Origin: Saprospiraceae bacterium
GTDB taxonomy: Bacteria > Bacteroidota > Bacteroidia > Chitinophagales > Saprospiraceae
Direction of reading: 5' to 3'
DNA length: 64,000 bases
NCBI GenBank assembly: GCA_013001595.1
Contig: JABDMH010000082.1
Location: forward strand, 1 to 64,000
The notes under the pieces were generated by a model. That model did not search any database and had not been told where the DNA came from. It was given only the letters and a program-made list of their open reading frames with translations. Below are positions 5,896-28,049 of the stretch, in pieces. The first letter of the stretch is position 1. Each line of letters opens with the position of its first letter. The position numbers and the translations under genes are program-made.

Positions 5896-8800
5896 TCATA
5901 GTACCTCGCTTAATTTAAATGAATACCTGCCAGAACCCACTTTAAGCATAATATATTCACCTTCATCTAACCCCTCAAGCACACCTTCGACGCCATCATG
6001 AAATTTATTATTCGCCCAGACATTCATATCATTTTCAGAAATCACAACATCCTTCTTCCCTGATTTTGGAATACTTAGGAAGGCTTCTGAATTTGCCGGA
6101 ATTACAACATCTATTGTAAAAGTACTATCCTCGATGTTCCATGACGATCGGATTTCTCCCCTGACGGTGTGGACAGATGCTTTTGCAAATGTCAAATCCT
6201 TAAGAGGATAGGGTTTAATTCTAAACTCCTGATATCCGGGTTCCATATTTGAAGCACCATAAAAATTGGGCCCCTGGATACCTGCAATAAAGTGGTAAAA
6301 ATACTCATTCACTCCTGCCAGCATGGTCATGTTGTCCGATCTTCTTCGACCTCCTAGTACGGCATAATCTCTACCCCAACTTTCCCATATGGTAGTAGCA
6401 CCCTGATCTACCATATAACCCCAACCAGGGTAGGTTGTGGTGTTGACGATATCATACATCACCTTGCCAAGACCATTGGCGGTTAGGGATTCAATCAGAG
6501 CTGTGATACCAGCATGTCCCACCCGCAAGTGGCTGTTGTCATTGCCAATGATGTTCTGTGCTATATTTTTGATTAGTTTTTCGCGATGTGTATCTGGTAC
6601 AAGACCTATCGATAATGGAAGCAATTCTGCGGTTTGAGACTTGGATCCATAATGGCCAGTTGACTTATCGAGCCACTTTTCGTTGAAGGCACTTTTCACT
6701 TCTTGAGCCAATTGCGTATAGCTCAACTGATCTGCTTTCAGCCCTAATACTCTGGCCATTTCAGACACTATTAAAATATTTCTATAATATAGCGCAGTCC
6801 ATGAAAGACTTGGTGGAGTCTCATCTGATCTCCATTTCTCATAGCCCGGCGCATGCCCTGGTACCATATGATCGCCCAACCAGCCAATCGTCACAATTGA
6901 CCCCTCGCACATATTGCTTTTGATATAATCAACCCAGTTTTTTATCGTCTCATAATGCTCATCTAAAAGCGATCGGTCATCATAAGCTTGATATAGGTAC
7001 CAAACCAACATGGCATAAGCCGAACCCTGTGACACGTCGGGATCCCGAGGCTTCCCAGGAAAAGCAGGAATCACATCTCCCACACTGCCATCCTGCCGAG
7101 CGGCTAATCTTATATCGGTAGCATATTTTCGCCAGAACAAAGGCATATGCTTCCTGGTGAAAAGACTTGCTGCAATACTCGCTGGTTCGTTGTAGCCATA
7201 AGGTTCTCTATGCAAACAATCCAACAGAAAGCCCTTCAAACTATTGCTAAGCGTCCGGTTTACATTATCATGAATGGCATTGAATAAATCATTTGAGCAT
7301 GTAAAGTCTCCTCTTAAGTTTTCGTCATTACGAACCATTTGACCTTGAATATCATCCGGGGATGGTTTGTATGAACATCCTACTAACTGCACGTATTGGA
7401 CCGGGTGATAAACAAATCGAGGTTGATAACTCTCACCACTGGGGTCACCCTTTAAAATATAATAATCCCTTTCTTGCTCTCCAGGCCAGGGTCCTTCGTC
7501 AATCATTCCATTTTTGAGTAGGCGGGTTGAATAATCGATCATTATTTCATCACCGGGTTTGCCCTTGATATTTAATTTAATCCATCCACCAAATAACTGA
7601 TCAAAATGACAGACAAATATCCCTGGTTTTGGTTCTGTAATTTTAATGGGTCTAAGCGTCTCAACAACTTTCATGGCGGGCATAATCTGAGCACTAAGCA
7701 GCCCACTGGGCCCATCGCTCTCTTCTGCTTCGAGCCATGAATGATCATCAAATCCAGCCTCACTCCACCCATCCTGCTCTTTTCGAGCATCATACTTCTC
7801 CCCAAAATCCATATCATTTTCCTCCATCGGTGCGTAAGAATATTTCCAAGTTTTATCACTCGAAAGATGCATTGTAGTACCATCTTCGAATTCGATATTC
7901 ATTTGGAGTAATAATTGGGATTTGTCACTCCAATTTTCAGCATAGTCTAGGACCTTTGCACTATACCAGCCATTACCCAGAAAAACACCCACAGCATTCT
8001 TTCCTCGTACCAACTGATCCGTGATATCATAAGTCATGTACTTAACCAACCGGTGATAATCTGTAAATGCCGGAGATATTACATCATCACTGATCTTATC
8101 TCCATTTATATAGCATTCGCTCAAGCCAAGACCAGAAAAATATATCCTTGCCCGAGATATCTTTTTATCGATCACAAACTCCTTTCTAAGCAATTGGGCA
8201 TCGCCAGATGGATCAGATCGGTGCCGATAATTATTAGCCAAAGTACCGTCGAATCTCCACCAACCGGCTAGGTCATTGGTCAAAATATTATTGTTCATTA
8301 CTTCAATGATCGACTCTTCCGGGAGGGCATTCCGATAAATACTTAACTCATCTATCCCGCCTTTGAAAAATTGTTCTTGATTGGAATGTGAACCAATATA
8401 GGCTGTCGCATATCCTCGAGGGTAAATGAGGCCAGGATTTGTAAAAGTTTTAATTTCCTTACCATCTAAATAAATCCTTTTGGCAATGCGATCGTAGGAA
8501 ACCGATATGTGATGCCAGCGCCCATCTGCAAAAAAATCATCCGGAAGGATGGCGCAATCCTCTGTATACACACCGCTGACACCCAATCCGAACCAAATAC
8601 CTTTTTCCCCATGTTTTGATCCAATGGCTAAAACCTGTGTTGCGACACCGTCATCTTTCCGATAAATGGTCTGCCACTCATCGGTAAATTCGTCTGGCTT
8701 TACCCAGGCGCTTATGGTAATGCCATCTTCCAATTTTGCCAGTCGATGAAACCTAGCCTTTATGGGTTGATCAGTGCCATTAAGTGAAACCGCTTCACCT

Positions 8801-19270: not shown

Positions 19271-20449
19271 TTACCAATCTCCTATGCTGTTGTCTTTATA
19301 AAAAGTGCGTTGTAAAATCTCTTGTTTGAAAGGGTGTTTTTTTATTTCCTCTTCATTGATTTCAATGCCCAGTCCGGGTTTTGTATTCGGAAAAACGATC
19401 TGACCTTTAGGCTCCATAGTGAAGCCTTCAGTCACTATATCTTTTCTCCAGGGTACATCTTCAGTCACCGTTTCGCAGATGATGTAACTGGGTTGTGAAA
19501 AACCAAACTCCAAAGATGCCGCTGTGCTGATTGGGCCTTGCGGGTTGTGAGGAGCCAGGGCAATACGGTGTGCCTCGGCCAGTGCAGCTATGCGTTTGGC
19601 TTCACTGAGACCACCGCAATGTGTTATGTCGAGTTGGCAAATTTCACATCCACGAGCCTCAAACAGATCTTTGAATTGAGCCAGGTGCGTCAAGCGTTCG
19701 CCGGTGGCCACAGGAGTGGTCAGGGCTTTATTGATCATGCTCAAACCTTTGATACTTTCCGGCCAACAAGGTTCTTCGTAGAAATAAAGGTTGAAAGGCT
19801 CCAGTGCCTTTCCGAATTTGAGGCCCATTGCCGGAGAAGGTCGTGCATGGCAATCGACCATGATGTCAATGTCTTCGCCCACTGCCTCGCGCATGGCGGA
19901 CACATTATTTATGGCATAATTGATGGGTTTAGACCCTTCGATGGGCATGGTAGATGGTACGGCCATGGTTTTGAAAGCCGTGTATCCTTTTTCCACAGCT
20001 TCCTGAGCCAATTCACCAAATCGTTTGTGATCGTCATCGGCTGTTTCGTAAAAATCTTCCATCCTACCACCGCCAAGATGGGCATAGGTTCGGATATGGT
20101 CGCGAACAGGGCCTCCCCAGAGTTTGTTGCATGGAACGCCAAGAGATTTGCCCATGATGTCCCATAAGGCAATATCGATGCCTGCGATGGCTGTCGAGCG
20201 AACGATACCATTGCCATGCCAGAAATGCTGACGGTACATCATCTGCCAGAGATACTCGACACGGGTGGGGTCTTCTCCGATGAGCAATTGGCTCAGGTCT
20301 TCTATGGCCCCAACAACTCCACGAGTGTGCCATTCGAGCGTAGCTTCTCCCCAGCCAAAAAGCCCGGGTTCATCGGTGATCACTTTCACAAAGATCCAAT
20401 TACGCATTTTCGCATGACAGACATGAGTTTCGATTTTTGTTATTTTCAT
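19271..20449 (-). CDS. Enolase-superfamily sugar-acid dehydratase (galactonate-dehydratase-like)
   Basis: [46 protein letters not shown]...[26 protein letters not shown]...DCHARPSP...EEPCWPE; start placed at the internal Met at 20449. Confidence 0.86.
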
Positions 20450-20456
20450 TTCAATA

Positions 20457-21830
20457 TCAATTGTGCAACATGGACTGAATTGTTTTTTTACAAGTGTCGA
20501 TAAGTATTTCCAGCCCACCTTGGTCAAATGGGGTTTGCCATACCGTATAAATATCTTCGGTATACAAGTGTGATTCTGGCAAGTAGCCATTTGCTCCATT
20601 GATCAAATTCATGACAATAATGGTGGAATTGGGAAAGGCTTTTCTTAATTCAATTTGTAATATGGAATAGGCTTCTGCCGGGCTTCCAATAAAGAAAGCT
20701 TCTCCTACACGCCATATCCAAACTGGCAGATGAAAATTATTTGTATCACCAAGTGACTGCTGCACCCTCAATTTTCTTAAAAGCCTTTCCTGGATGACTC
20801 GGTCTGTCGCTTGTTCTAATTCCCTTTTTATTTGAGCATGATCCTGCCAGTCAGGTTTTATTTTTATTGGAACTTGTTCCACTTTGGATTTTAAAACTTC
20901 AGAATAGGCTTTGTTTTTCTTCAGTGTCCAGACTGCCAAGGGAGCTCCGGACTCCTGCATTCTGTCAAACACTAACTCATCACTTTGAGATAACCCATGC
21001 ATGGTGCCTAGCACTGAAAAACCTAATTTTCTACCGTGTAAATCGGCAATATCTGTATCACTGGTATACTGATGTGCTGGTGCCAGTTCACCACAAGCAC
21101 CTAATAAAAACAGACACAGGGCATTTGGATATTGCTCCTCTACTGTTTCCCGCATGGCTCCAACATAATCCGGGGATATCAGCTCATTTTCCCAGGCTAA
21201 CGTAGTTGGGTGGCAGGCATAGTTGACCAGTATCCCGAGTACATCTCCTTCACTGCTTGTTACCTTGCCCACTACAAGTGTTTCATCTGCTGTGACTTTT
21301 GGGTTGTAACCAGTAATAAATCTCTGGCTACTTGCATCTTTCAGATCACGATTTGTAGCCAAATCACAACTTCCCTTAAACCAACTTATGTAGGCGTTTT
21401 CTATATTTTGTCTGGCTTCCAAAACCGCCTCTATTATTTGCTCCTTTATTTTATTTAAATAGGGCACTACCCATTTCCCTCCAGGTTTATCGGCATTGTC
21501 TCGTGAGAGAAACATAACTGAATGGGTGTGAGAAACGCCAATCATCACTTGCGCCGAATTGGTCCCTAATGCGTCTATAACTGCCTTACGCATTTCCCAC
21601 TCATCTTCCCTATTGGCGTACAAGGTCCCGTCGAAATTGACAAGAACATAAAGATCCTCCTGGCCATCTCCGGATGCCATCACCATGGCAGTGGCATACA
21701 AGGGTTTATGAATGCCCTTTGCGCAGTCGGATATAGCAGCTCCCCAGCATCTTGAATAGATACCAATAGACGGGGTTATATCTTGCCTCCCAAAACCAAT
21801 CTTACTTTTGAATATCGACTCTTTACCCAA
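20457..21830 (-). CDS. Neutral/alkaline ceramidase-like (N-terminal domain family) protein, no obvious signal peptide
   Basis: [22 protein letters not shown]...[13 protein letters not shown]...[31 protein letters not shown]...[11 protein letters not shown]. Confidence 0.78.
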
Positions 21831-21844
21831 TTGTTTATTTTATT

Positions 21845-22615
21845 TTAACTATTTGAATTACCTAAACTCAAACCGCCGTCCATCAATAGCGTAGACCCTG
21901 TCATATGTCTATTATTGGGATCGCACAGTACTAAGACTTGTTTGGCTACTTCGCCTGGTTCGATAAATTCGTTTACCGGTATTCGTGCTTGAATGGACTC
22001 TTGTAGTTGCGGCTGATCCTTCATAATTTCCCCACTCAGGCCTGCATTAATAATACCAAGCGCTATCTCGTTGACCATAATATTATTCTCTGCATATTCG
22101 GCGGCCATGCATTTACACAACATTCTCAAACCAGCCTTTCCCACGCAATAAGCTGGAATATCTTTATGCACCCTATTCGCTGCCCAACTTCCTATGTAAA
22201 TTATTCTCCCCTTTTTCTTCCTTTCCACCAGCTTGTTTGCAGCTGCCCGGGACATATAAAAACAGCCACTCAAATTGACTGATAATTGTTGGTTCCAATC
22301 ATCAACGCTTATTTGCCTGATATTGCTAATTCTGACAATGGCAGCATTGGGTATAATAAGCGTCGGAACACCTAAATCATTTGATATTGTACTTATCCAG
22401 TCTTCAACTGATTTTGGATCAGACACGTCCACTTTAGTATACACAACTCCACGGCCCAAATCCTGGAGTGAAGCAACAAAAGGTGCTGCTTCATGTTCCT
22501 CTTCGATATCACCTATCGCGATGTCAGCGCCACAGCTGGCCAGCTCACGGGCAATCGCCCGTCCAATATCACCCAGGCCACCACTGATCAGTGCAATTTG
22601 ATTCTTTAATTCCAT
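21845..22615 (-). CDS. Short-chain dehydrogenase/reductase
   Basis: ELKNQIALISGGLGDIGRAIARELASCGADIAIGD...NAAIVRISNIRQ...YIGSWAANRVHKDIPAYCVGKAGLRML. Confidence 0.9.
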   Translation of the reverse strand: MELKNQIALISGGLGDIGRAIARELASCGADIAIGDIEEEHEAAPFVASLQDLGRGVVYTKVDVSDPKSVEDWISTISNDLGVPTLIIPNAAIVRISNIRQISVDDWNQQLSVNLSGCFYMSRAAANKLVERKKKGRIIYIGSWAANRVHKDIPAYCVGKAGLRMLCKCMAAEYAENNIMVNEIALGIINAGLSGEIMKDQPQLQESIQARIPVNEFIEPGEVAKQVLVLCDPNNRHMTGSTLLMDGGLSLGNSNS

Positions 22616-22785: not shown

Positions 22786-24627
22786 CTATCGAAAAAACCA
22801 GAACAAATAAATAATTAATCCGACAAACAACAACCACCAGAACAATACATTACTGTACCACTTACCGCCCAAGCCGCTAAAAATGTTTAATTTCTTCCAA
22901 TTGATGGTAAGATCATCGGTTACTTGATCTGCTCTGGGAGGGGCGGTCAATAAACTAACTATTACACAGACCAACACACAAAACACCCAATTTATGGAAG
23001 CTTGATTTAGGAAGGGCTTGGCCCAAGGCAAATGCTCTGAATTGAGATAATATCCCAGATTGCGCATGCCCAAGTTATTGGTCCAGTCCATCAAATAATT
23101 GTTGGAATAAAAATTCAATATAAATCCAAAAGCAAAGCCCAAGGTCACTGCCGTTATAGCTCCATTCGAATTGATTCTTCGAAAAAGAATCCCCAATAAA
23201 AAGACCGCTGCAAATGGTGGCGCAAAAAAGGCATACAAGGATTGAATGTAAATAAAGATATTTTCAGATTTAAAATAGGATATGCTATATGCAATAAAAA
23301 TTGCAATAATCAACACCCATATGGAAGAACGAACCCCAATTTTAATTAAACGCCGTTCAGATACTTCCGGGTTGATCATGCGCTTATAAATATCCATTGT
23401 ATAGATTGTTGATGTAGAATTCAGAACTGAGTTGACCGTAGATTGAATGGCTCCAAATAAAGCTGCCAGAAAGAGCCCAACCAATCCTGCCGGAACAAAG
23501 GACTGCAATAATATCACATAGACTTTGTCCGAAATCTCCTTTACTGAATCCCAATCGCCAAGTAGCAACTCTGGCTTTGCCGCAAACAATATCAGTCCCG
23601 GAACGACCAATAGAACTGGTATAAATATTTTAATAAACCCTGCCAGAACCATTCCCATACGGGCATGCCACATATCTTTTGCACCTAAGACACGTTGGAT
23701 CATAAATTGGTTAATGACATTATACCAAATGCTGATAGAAAATGTTATTAATATGAGTGATGTCCAGGGTGTGAAAGTATGTGAACTAGGTTGAATTACT
23801 GATAATCTTTCTGTAGCTCCGGAACCTCTATATCCGTTTATTTGGTCAGCATGTTTCGCCGCTGCTTCCAGCCATTTACCAGCTGTAGCTTGGTTTTTTT
23901 CCATCATGATACCCCAACCCTCAATTACAGATCCCGTAGCTCCGGAAAGCCATTTCAAGCCTAGCCAGGTAACCGCAATACCTCCCATCAACATGACAAT
24001 CAGGGTTATAAAATCGGTCCAGGCTACAGATCGTAGTCCTCCGTAAATGGCCCAAACACCAGATACTGTACCTAATATCACAATGGCCAATAGCAAGTTC
24101 CATTCCATCACAAAAAAAGCCCCATTTGAATCCTTAAAAGGCAGTTTTGTGTTCAGAATTCCGAAATCAACAATTTCAGTGACCACGATTCCGCCGATGT
24201 AAAGCACCGCTGAAAGAAACGCGACCACGCTTGCCACGATCGAAACAACTGCAAAAAATTGTCGCATGGAATTATTAAATCGCTTTTCGAGAAATTCTGG
24301 AATCGTAAACACCCTTGAAGCCAATAAAAAAGGAATAAAAAGCCAGATCAATAAAGAGAAAGATCCTACGTTTCCCCAGTCGAACACCGCTGCACATACT
24401 CCATAAATAAAGGCTGAACCCATTACCCCAATAAACTGTTCGGAACTCATATTTGAGGCGACCTGCGAGGTGCCTACTACATACCATGGAAGTGATCGGC
24501 CTGCAAGGAAATAGTCCTCTGATACATTTTTTTCCTTTTTTCCAACAAGATATCCAACCGCACCTAGTACAATGAAGTAAGCGATAATAACTGCATAGTC
24601 CAATATTGCCAGCGAAAGTCCATTCAT
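22786..24627 (-). CDS. Sodium:solute symporter (SSS/SGLT family)
   Basis: 613 aa, multi-TM; NVSEDYFLAGRSLPWYVVGTSQVASNMSSEQFIGVMGSAFIYG. Confidence 0.92.
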   Translation of the reverse strand: MNGLSLAILDYAVIIAYFIVLGAVGYLVGKKEKNVSEDYFLAGRSLPWYVVGTSQVASNMSSEQFIGVMGSAFIYGVCAAVFDWGNVGSFSLLIWLFIPFLLASRVFTIPEFLEKRFNNSMRQFFAVVSIVASVVAFLSAVLYIGGIVVTEIVDFGILNTKLPFKDSNGAFFVMEWNLLLAIVILGTVSGVWAIYGGLRSVAWTDFITLIVMLMGGIAVTWLGLKWLSGATGSVIEGWGIMMEKNQATAGKWLEAAAKHADQINGYRGSGATERLSVIQPSSHTFTPWTSLILITFSISIWYNVINQFMIQRVLGAKDMWHARMGMVLAGFIKIFIPVLLVVPGLILFAAKPELLLGDWDSVKEISDKVYVILLQSFVPAGLVGLFLAALFGAIQSTVNSVLNSTSTIYTMDIYKRMINPEVSERRLIKIGVRSSIWVLIIAIFIAYSISYFKSENIFIYIQSLYAFFAPPFAAVFLLGILFRRINSNGAITAVTLGFAFGFILNFYSNNYLMDWTNNLGMRNLGYYLNSEHLPWAKPFLNQASINWVFCVLVCVIVSLLTAPPRADQVTDDLTINWKKLNIFSGLGGKWYSNVLFWWLLFVGLIIYLFWFFR

Positions 24628-24711: not shown

Positions 24712-24975
24712 CTACCCTAAATCCAGAACGGCCAATTCACCACGTTTAAAATGGCTCATCAGTACCTCTTTAGCCCGCTTTAAGTTCTTGTTTTTAATTG
24801 CCTCAATTAGCTGGCGGTGTTCCCTATCAGTCTGCATATAGTCTCCTATTTCGCCAGTGGTTACCAGACCCTCCCCCAATAATCTGTTTAATGCTTCTCG
24901 AATAGCCAATAGTCCCAAATTCAACTTTTCGGCCCATCCATCCTCTTTGAGACGTGTATTTGGCTGTATTCGCAT
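24712..24975 (-). pseudogene. GntR/FadR-type regulator, N-truncated and internally deleted
   Basis: RIQPNTRLKEDGWAEKLNLGLLAIREALNRLLGEGLVTTGE directly followed by FCD C-terminal DREHRQLIEAIKNKNLKRAKEVLMSHFKRG; only 87 aa. Confidence 0.7.
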
Positions 24976-25058
24976 GGTTATTATTTGACGCCCTTATTCC
25001 AAACAGGCAGTATTTGACTGAGAACCGTTTTTCATAAATAAATGCTACATTTCGTCTA

Positions 25059-25113
25059 ATGTATACATAATATGGCTAGTATTGTATACGAAATAAAATT
25101 GATTCTGTGTACA
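25059..25113. promoter_or_regulatory. Candidate operator array: three TGTRTAC palindromes at 23-bp centre-to-centre spacing
   Basis: atgtatacat (25059-25068), ttgtatacga (25082-25090 region), tgtgtaca (25106-25113); GTRTAC cores at 25061-66, 25084-89, 25107-112. Confidence 0.6.
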
Positions 25114-25135
25114 AATATTCACTCAGTTTATTATT

Positions 25136-26464
25136 ATGCAAGGGGAAACCAACCAATCACTAAGTAGTCTTGAGATCATTGATAGATCATCTAAATACAT
25201 TGCTGGCGGGGTGGTTTCCCTTAATAGAAAAGTCTCACCCGGTATCGTATTCGACAGCGCCGAAGGCAGTAAGTTATACGATGTAGATGGCCGTGAATAC
25301 ATTGATTACCACGCTGCTTTTGCACCCTATTTATTGGGGCACAACTTCCCATATGTGAATGATGCTGCGATTAAATCGTTAAGTGATGGTTGGTCGCTGA
25401 TGGGCTCAGGCACCAATTATTGGGAGGCTACCTTATCACAAATGCTTTGTGAATCTGTACCTTCCTTAGAGCTGGTTCAAATTACAAATACAGGAAGTGA
25501 AGCTACAGCACATGCCATTCGTCTGAGTCGAGCATACACCGGCAGAGATCATATTATCTTACCCCTGGGAGGATACAATGGATGGCACAACGAAGTGGCG
25601 AGAAAAGTGATGACTACCATTGACGAAATTGGTCCCCGAGTATCTCCGGGTGAATACCCCTTTATGGCAATGTCTGGGGGCATACCAGAAGACACCAAAA
25701 AGGTGGTACATATTGTAAATTTCAATGACCTTGGATCAGTGGAATACGTGATGAAGAAATATCCGATAGCTTGTGTAATGACCGAACCGGTATTGCAGAA
25801 CGTAGGGATTGTCTCCCCGAATCCGGGCTATCTCAAAGGCCTTATCGAACTATGTGAACGCCATGGTTCATTATGCGTTTTTGACGAAGTAAAGACAGGC
25901 TTTCGAACCGGACTGGGCGGCTATCAGGAATACTGTGGCGTCAAGCCGCATTTGTCCGTTTTCGGTAAAGCAGTGGCTAATGGATTCCCACTCGGCGTAA
26001 TTGGGGGCAAACGAGGAATCATGGAATTGTTTAATGACCCTGATGATAAAAAAAGGGTTCTTATTGCGGGTACATACAATGCCCACCCCGTGAATACCGC
26101 TGCGGCCATTGCTACCATCGAATTTCTTAGAAGAGATGGGGTTTATGAATCTATTGACAAATCCAGCCATCTACTGTATGATGGGCTAAAGATGCTTTTT
26201 GATGAGAAGGGAATTGCATCAACTCTTGCGAATAACAAATCGGCTTTTTGTGCTTATTTCTGTAATGAGGCCCCACAAGATCTTCATGATGTCTTAAAGA
26301 ACCATAATTTTCAATTGGATCTTACCTATCGCCAAGAACTAATTAAACGGGGTGTTTACCATATTCCTATTCCATGTAAACAGGGTTCGGTGAGTTATTC
26401 TCATACTGAGGAAGACATTAATAAGACATTAGAAATCACTCGGGAGGTTCTAAAGGTAATATGA
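25136..26464 (+). CDS. Class III aminotransferase (glutamate-1-semialdehyde aminomutase-like)
   Basis: GSKLYDVDGREYIDYHAAFAPYLLGH...ITNTGSEATAHAIRLSRAYTGRDHII...CVFDEVKTGFRTGLGGYQEYCGVKPHLSVFGKAVANGFPLG. Confidence 0.92.
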   Translation: MQGETNQSLSSLEIIDRSSKYIAGGVVSLNRKVSPGIVFDSAEGSKLYDVDGREYIDYHAAFAPYLLGHNFPYVNDAAIKSLSDGWSLMGSGTNYWEATLSQMLCESVPSLELVQITNTGSEATAHAIRLSRAYTGRDHIILPLGGYNGWHNEVARKVMTTIDEIGPRVSPGEYPFMAMSGGIPEDTKKVVHIVNFNDLGSVEYVMKKYPIACVMTEPVLQNVGIVSPNPGYLKGLIELCERHGSLCVFDEVKTGFRTGLGGYQEYCGVKPHLSVFGKAVANGFPLGVIGGKRGIMELFNDPDDKKRVLIAGTYNAHPVNTAAAIATIEFLRRDGVYESIDKSSHLLYDGLKMLFDEKGIASTLANNKSAFCAYFCNEAPQDLHDVLKNHNFQLDLTYRQELIKRGVYHIPIPCKQGSVSYSHTEEDINKTLEITREVLKVI

Positions 26465-26765
26465 CTTCAAATTTGTCAATTTATTGGACCTAGCATATTC
26501 AGTGGTTCGTGTTCTTACTCCAAATACTCAAGTCCAAGAATTGATTCGAAAAATTCACTTTAACCCAAGTTACTACTGGACTCTGGAGTGTGGTATAAAT
26601 TCTGTTGGTTCGCAGTGAAATCTAAGGGATAGTTCCCCATTGGAGGAGCTGGTCTTCTTCAGGCCCAAATGGGTCCTGTCTTCCCAATCAGACAAAATAA
26701 ATCAATACCTGTCTTCTTTAAAATACAATATAGTATCTTTGGAGTCTTTACTAACGGACAAAAAG

Positions 26766-28049
26766 ATGGACAAGAAAAATGTATTTCGTCAAATCATTGC
26801 CGAATTCATTGAAAATCCGCTGCCTAAAGCGTTACCTCGACATGTTGAAATCCCTTTGGATACTCCAAAAATCATATCTCTTCTGGGACCTCGAAGGTCT
26901 GGTAAAACCTATGCCCTGTTTTATGCAATGCAACAGCTTCACAAAAGTGTGGAGCGAAGTAGATTGATTTATCTCAACTTTGAAGATGACAGGCTTTTCC
27001 CCTTGCGATTAAGGGATATGGATAGCTTGCTGCAAGCCTATTTTGAATTATATCCAGACAATAAGGATGGAAGAGTCTGGTTCTTTTTTGATGAAGTTCA
27101 GGAAGTCCAGCATTGGGAGAAATTCGTACGAAGGGTCTGGGATACAGAAAATTGCCGGATCTATTTGACTGGATCTTCCTCTAAACTACTAAGCAGAGAG
27201 CTTTCCACGACATTACGAGGTCGAACCTTACCCTATGAGATTTTTCCGCTCAATCTTAGTGAATTTTTGAATTTCAATAACATAGAAATCCATCCAGAAA
27301 CGTCGAAAGGTCAGGCAACTATCTTGCATTGGTTTGATCGCTGGCTTCGACAAGGTGGATTTCCTGAGTTGGTTTTTCTATCAAGAGATTTGCATCGGCG
27401 CACGATTGACGAATATCTGGATTTGATGCTTTACAAAGACCTGACTGAAAGGTTCTCTTTAAAAAATCCTTCGCTACTCAAGTATTTATTGAAATACGTG
27501 ATTAGCAATCTAGCCAATCCTTTGAGCATCAACAAGATCTTCAACGACATTAAATCTCAAGGCTTTAAACTGAGTAGGTCAACGGTTTACGACTATCTAT
27601 CCCATCTTGAAGAAGCGTTTTTAATATTTAGGGTTGACATTTGGCATCGGTCCATACGATCGCAATCACAGACCCCTAGTAAAACCTACATCATCGACCC
27701 TGCGTTCAAATTTGCCATGACAATTGGGGATGATACTGGTCGAGTCTTGGAAAATGCCGTTTTTCTTCATCTGAAGCAACAGGGATTGAAGTTGCATTAT
27801 TTTCTAAAAAAACAAGAAGTTGACTTCTTTTGGGAAAATGGAAAACCAATTAATGTATGTTTAGATTTTCATACCGATGACACCAAAGCACGCGAAATCA
27901 AAGGTATTTTGGAGGCCTTGAATTTTTTGGATGAAAAGGAAGGCTTAATTTTAACTCGTGACAGAACAGAAGACATTAAAACAAATGGAAAGAATATTTT
28001 AATCAGACCTGCATGGAAATTCTTTTTGGAAAAAACCAACTCCATTTAA
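26766..28049 (+). CDS. AAA ATPase with C-terminal DUF4143-like nuclease-fold domain
   Basis: IISLLGPRRSGKTYALFYAMQQL (Walker A), VWFFFDEVQEVQHWEKFVRRVWD, CRIYLTGSSSKLLSRELSTTLRGRTLPYEIFPLNLSEFL; start moved to MDKKNVFRQ. Confidence 0.85.
   Translation: MDKKNVFRQIIAEFIENPLPKALPRHVEIPLDTPKIISLLGPRRSGKTYALFYAMQQLHKSVERSRLIYLNFEDDRLFPLRLRDMDSLLQAYFELYPDNKDGRVWFFFDEVQEVQHWEKFVRRVWDTENCRIYLTGSSSKLLSRELSTTLRGRTLPYEIFPLNLSEFLNFNNIEIHPETSKGQATILHWFDRWLRQGGFPELVFLSRDLHRRTIDEYLDLMLYKDLTERFSLKNPSLLKYLLKYVISNLANPLSINKIFNDIKSQGFKLSRSTVYDYLSHLEEAFLIFRVDIWHRSIRSQSQTPSKTYIIDPAFKFAMTIGDDTGRVLENAVFLHLKQQGLKLHYFLKKQEVDFFWENGKPINVCLDFHTDDTKAREIKGILEALNFLDEKEGLILTRDRTEDIKTNGKNILIRPAWKFFLEKTNSI

Follow-up and report, generated by a model that had tools for sequence, protein, structure and literature searches.

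Atu1419 of Agrobacterium fabrum is a structurally characterised GntR regulator of the FCD/VanR group; its operator is ATGTATACAT, the G of which is read by Arg45, and two sites located 190 bp apart are looped by a tetramer (PMC7797058). Double sites at a constant distance, for which cooperative binding has been proposed, are described for the FadR-subfamily divergons in a 2015 comparative survey (PMC4494728). NanR of Escherichia coli, an FCD GntR protein, fills three adjacent sites cooperatively with three dimers; its operator consists of GGTATA direct repeats at short intervals, and the cooperativity depends on an N-terminal extension of 32 residues (PMC8012715). BusR has a GntR-type wHTH that reads a fixed 22 bp operator spacing as a ruler, an RCK_C domain with a coiled coil, and GAC half-motifs facing the same side (PMC8517857).

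The locus compared here with these systems lies in a 64,000-nucleotide stretch of a Saprospiraceae genome (hereafter the window). A scan of the window located TGTATAC at 25060-25066 and 25083-25089 and TGTGTAC at 25106-25112, all on the forward strand, with core centres at 25063.5, 25086.5 and 25109.5. This confirmed the three palindromes of an earlier note on this DNA, with start positions 25060, 25083 and 25106 and an exact spacing of 23 and 23 bp. The window shows no enrichment of the TGTRTAC 7-mer alone (14 occurrences against 9.9 expected); the significance of the array rests on the spacing. The unit is better written as the 8-bp palindrome TGTWWACA, which gives putative operator site 1 at 25060..25067 (TGTATACA; with flanks ATGTATACAT, identical to the Atu1419 operator), site 2 at 25083..25090 (TGTATACG) and site 3 at 25106..25113 (TGTGTACA). 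Two further perfect TGTATACA palindromes occur in the window at 2787-2794 and 8563-8570; both are solitary, with no partner at 23 bp. Similar right flanks had also been claimed for the array, but this similarity is weak: the two AT-rich spacers, counted by eye, agree at 6 of 15 positions. As the spacers differ, the array is not a recent 23-bp tandem duplication, and such an origin was rejected.

Site 1 lies about 24 bp from the original start codon (25035) of a reverse-strand GntR (FCD type) pseudogene at 24712..25035. The window GntR can be aligned with its intact orthologues from this codon to its end, and it carries an in-frame TAA at codon 14 (24996-24994). It also lacks 105 residues of the effector (FCD) domain, lost in frame at about 24843 (residues 65-169 of the orthologue in locus L038), and has leucine in place of Arg42; this arginine is shared by all 13 aligned intact orthologues and corresponds to Arg45 of Atu1419. 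A residual frame (24712-24975) is open from an internal ATG. The remnant scored 21.5 bits with PF00392 (GntR wHTH; cut-off 27) and 23.8 bits with PF07729 (FCD; cut-off 24.3), the latter over positions 89-124 only, whereas the orthologue from L041 passes both (48.6 bits against the cut-off of 27, and 75.6 bits, respectively). Judged by these lesions, as read from a draft assembly, the window GntR is a dead member of the FCD/FadR subfamily.

On the other side of the array, an intact class III aminotransferase gene (glutamate-1-semialdehyde aminomutase-like; 25136..26464, forward strand) is a putative target, its orthologues being 50-70% identical. The leftward operon, on the reverse strand, has as its first intact gene a sodium:solute symporter (22786..24627), also a putative target, and continues with an SDR dehydrogenase, a ceramidase-like protein and a galactonate-dehydratase-like MR/MLE enzyme (19271..22615). 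All structural genes of the cluster have open frames. The dehydratase and dehydrogenase families make a sugar acid the likely substrate. The same enzymes are grouped in planctomycete loci and in Dyadobacter (L047), where an intact GntR gene of the same family lies at a distance of a few kilobases. An AAA_14/DUF4143 ATPase gene (26640-28049) directly follows the aminotransferase gene of the window and marks the edge of the cluster.

One important question is whether relatives that retain the GntR gene also retain such sites. Orthologous loci were collected by scanning GTDB genomes with the divergent aminotransferase, which returned Bacteroidota loci at 64-70% identity, and further GntR orthologues were added by protein search. 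The GntR gene is divergent from the aminotransferase gene, as in the window, in five loci (L038, L041, L042, L050, in which a contig end truncates the GntR gene, and L051), and all five contain two intergenic TGTWWACA-like palindromes with centres 23 bp apart: TGTAAACA-N15-TGATTACA in L038, CGTATACG-N15-TGTAACCA in L041 and L051, TGTTTACA-N15-TGTAAACA in L042 and TGTAAACA-N15-GGTAAACA in L050. Another pair, TGTTTACG-N15-TGTTTACA, was found in L077, similar 23-bp pairs occur in L047, L075 and L080-L082, and L039 has two 23-bp pairs with no adjacent GntR gene. The site sequences differ among relatives (TGTAAACA, TGTTTACA, TGTATACA) and the 23-bp spacing is constant. No 23-bp pair was found beside the GntR gene in L078, L079, L083 or L085; in the last two, which are relatives from the same family, a single TGTATACA upstream of the gene takes the place of the pair.

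Pair statistics were computed over 28 flanking regions, from which near-duplicates and the window itself were left out. With at most one mismatch, 11 of 22 pairs lay at exactly 23 bp, against a mean of 0.01 in shuffled sequences, and in 300 dinucleotide shuffles no spacing exceeded 2 pairs; allowing two mismatches gave 17 pairs at 23 bp in 13 regions. The earlier note had let its proposal stand or fall with whether orthologous promoters share the sites and their spacing; relatives do share them, and the proposal was not refuted. The GT and AC of the core are kept in 28 to 31 of the 31 sites of relatives, position by position, and the palindromes have the GT-N2/3-AC core of FCD/FadR-subfamily operators (PMC4494728). 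The occurrence of pairs in relatives supports the proposal of an operator array in the divergent control region between the GntR and aminotransferase genes, and the same palindromes at the same spacing beside intact GntR genes point to the family of the collapsed GntR as the cognate regulator, as had been suggested.

The genome-wide search that had been proposed found TGTRTAC-N15..17-TGTRTAC twice in the 6.2-Mb genome, both times at the array (0 in the control). When 399 genomes from the order were searched for the triple, only the window's own had it, with no match in the other 398. Relaxed TGTWWACA pairs are at background both in the whole genome (29 against 27 in the reversed control) and in a gene-blind scan of 299 genomes of the order (7 against 11 in the control), so that nothing points to a large regulon and the motif is not diagnostic by itself. 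One pair of the latter scan directly adjoins a GntR orthologue, although the total equals background. A near-match at C1:78401 adjoins a glycine-cleavage-type gene; nothing else supports this site. An aminotransferase search of congeners returned only paralogues of at most 35% identity, so that none of these congeners carries the locus.

The sites also overlap candidate promoter elements. The -7 box of Bacteroidota has the consensus TAnnTTTG (PMC9723704). A candidate box for the aminotransferase gene, TAGTATTG (25077..25084, forward strand), shares its last TG with site 2, and one for the leftward GntR/transporter operon, AATATTTG (25112..25119, reverse strand), shares its last TG with site 3; each has one mismatch to the consensus. 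Across the loci a single fixed register was observed, in which the last TG of TAnnTTTG is the first TG of the site: perfect boxes occur at 8 of 67 site strand-ends, among which the window sites are counted but contribute none; the corresponding count for background TG positions is 11 of 1091. With boxes overlapping sites 2 and 3, an occupied array would cover both divergent promoters. The common unit in relatives is the pair, and the third site is therefore probably an addition. From the -7-box register and from how far the sites lie from the original start codon of GntR (about 24 bp in the window, about 22 in L042), we infer that sites 1 and 2 are probably the ancestral pair, to which site 3 was added. 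Triples with 23/23 bp spacing were found upstream of the GntR gene in L038 and L080 and downstream of it in L047; in every one of them, one or more of the sites are degenerate.

On sequence grounds, the three palindromes are very probably operators. In the model proposed here, they would serve an FCD (FadR-subfamily) GntR repressor that controls its own gene and a catabolic cluster of the sugar-acid type. We infer binding, cooperativity, repression, derepression and an inducer as follows. Each 8-bp palindrome would take one dimer; dimers 23 bp apart would be direct neighbours on the DNA, probably binding cooperatively, and would mask the -7 elements of the aminotransferase gene (site 2) and of the GntR/transporter operon (site 3), until an inducer from the pathway frees them from the sites. 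Looping, raised in the earlier note, was set aside: it is not needed for contiguous sites, an arrangement that suits side-by-side dimers. In the window genome the repressor gene would have decayed while operators and enzyme genes were kept, which would leave the array orphaned and the cluster most likely expressed without GntR control. We consider this model as a whole, from the operators to the loss of control, to be quite probable.

It has to be weighed against readings in which the array has another origin or the regulator still works. That the 23-bp regularity arose by chance, or from a tandem repeat that has since diverged, would agree with the unenriched 7-mer; its probability is nevertheless negligible, because independent relatives share the spacing despite different site and spacer sequences. 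The genome is a draft in 161 contigs and the GntR frame is otherwise preserved, as would be expected if the lesions were assembly or sequencing errors in an ordinary working repressor circuit. This is very unlikely, given three independent lesions (the stop, the 105-residue in-frame loss and the change of arginine to leucine) in one gene whose neighbours are all open. The frame from the internal ATG could in principle encode a small protein that still binds the array, since it is open over 87 codons and its product is 65% identical to the L038 protein over the remaining part. Such a protein would lack the first helix of the winged helix, the 105 FCD residues and the conserved base-reading arginine, and both Pfam domains score under their cut-offs, so that a working product is highly improbable.

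A further alternative is that the array is not orphaned, its sites being occupied by a transcription factor of another family or by the one other intact FCD GntR of the genome, C67; capture by a paralogue had been envisaged in the earlier note. The three sites do still match well although their regulator is dead. Against this, the genome contains only three other GntR-domain ORFs, one of them with FCD, and none is an orthologue of the lost GntR (for C67, no match at E<=1e-30). The C67 gene has no TGTRTAC upstream, the sole match in its locus being downstream, and similarly spaced sites elsewhere in the genome are not above background. Occupation by another regulator is thus unlikely, and the orphaned array remains the preferred reading.

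This system is a further example of the known FCD-GntR type and follows a spacing rule of its own. Like Atu1419, the family combines wHTH and FCD, would be autoregulated and has a palindrome overlapping a promoter, and the equivalent of Arg45 is conserved in the intact relatives; the sequence relationship to Atu1419 is only distant, however, and contiguous 23-bp sites stand in place of looped ones. The GT-N2-AC core and the double sites between a regulator gene and a divergent structural operon recall the FadR-subfamily divergons, but that survey analyses no FadR-type regulators from Bacteroidetes, and neither the window family nor its motif or 23-bp rule was found in the sections consulted (PMC4494728). 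Three adjacent sites filled cooperatively would resemble NanR; however, the sites of the window family are TGTWWACA palindromes at 23 bp and not GGTATA direct repeats, and its proteins begin directly at the wHTH. A fixed spacing read by a GntR-type wHTH is shared with BusR, in contrast to which the window has full palindromes and the family has FCD (L041 has no RCK_C match). Literature searches yielded no account of FCD operators paired at 23 bp. As a tentative extension, this Bacteroidota family may be a hitherto undescribed one that reads a strict 23-bp ruler through dimer-dimer contacts unlike those of NanR and Atu1419, in two- or three-site arrays, one of which has outlived its reader; 23 bp being 2.2 helical turns, neighbouring dimers would be rotated by roughly 80 degrees.

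The analysis defines an operator (TGTWWACA-N15-TGTWWACA) and a promoter geometry for a Bacteroidota regulator family. With the repressor gone and operators and enzymes in place, the window offers a naturally occurring example on which the consequences of a loss of local control are directly testable.

Some observations concern the relatives. In L083 and L085, the GntR protein has 'SRTA' in the recognition helix and the single TGTATACA lies close to its own start codon; most orthologues with 'SRMA/NRMA' in this helix carry TGTTTACA/TGTAAACA pairs. It is possible that recognition-helix residue and operator centre covary. In the planctomycete locus L044, an IclR-type gene (L044:7158-7949) precedes the aminotransferase gene where the FCD GntR would be, and L043 and L046, judged by eye, are arranged likewise, which suggests that the regulator has been swapped over a conserved enzyme set. 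In Dyadobacter, the triple 23-bp array (L047:1441-1494) follows the intact GntR gene (L047:732-1364) and precedes a SusC/SusD-like gene pair, so that GntR may also control uptake genes there.
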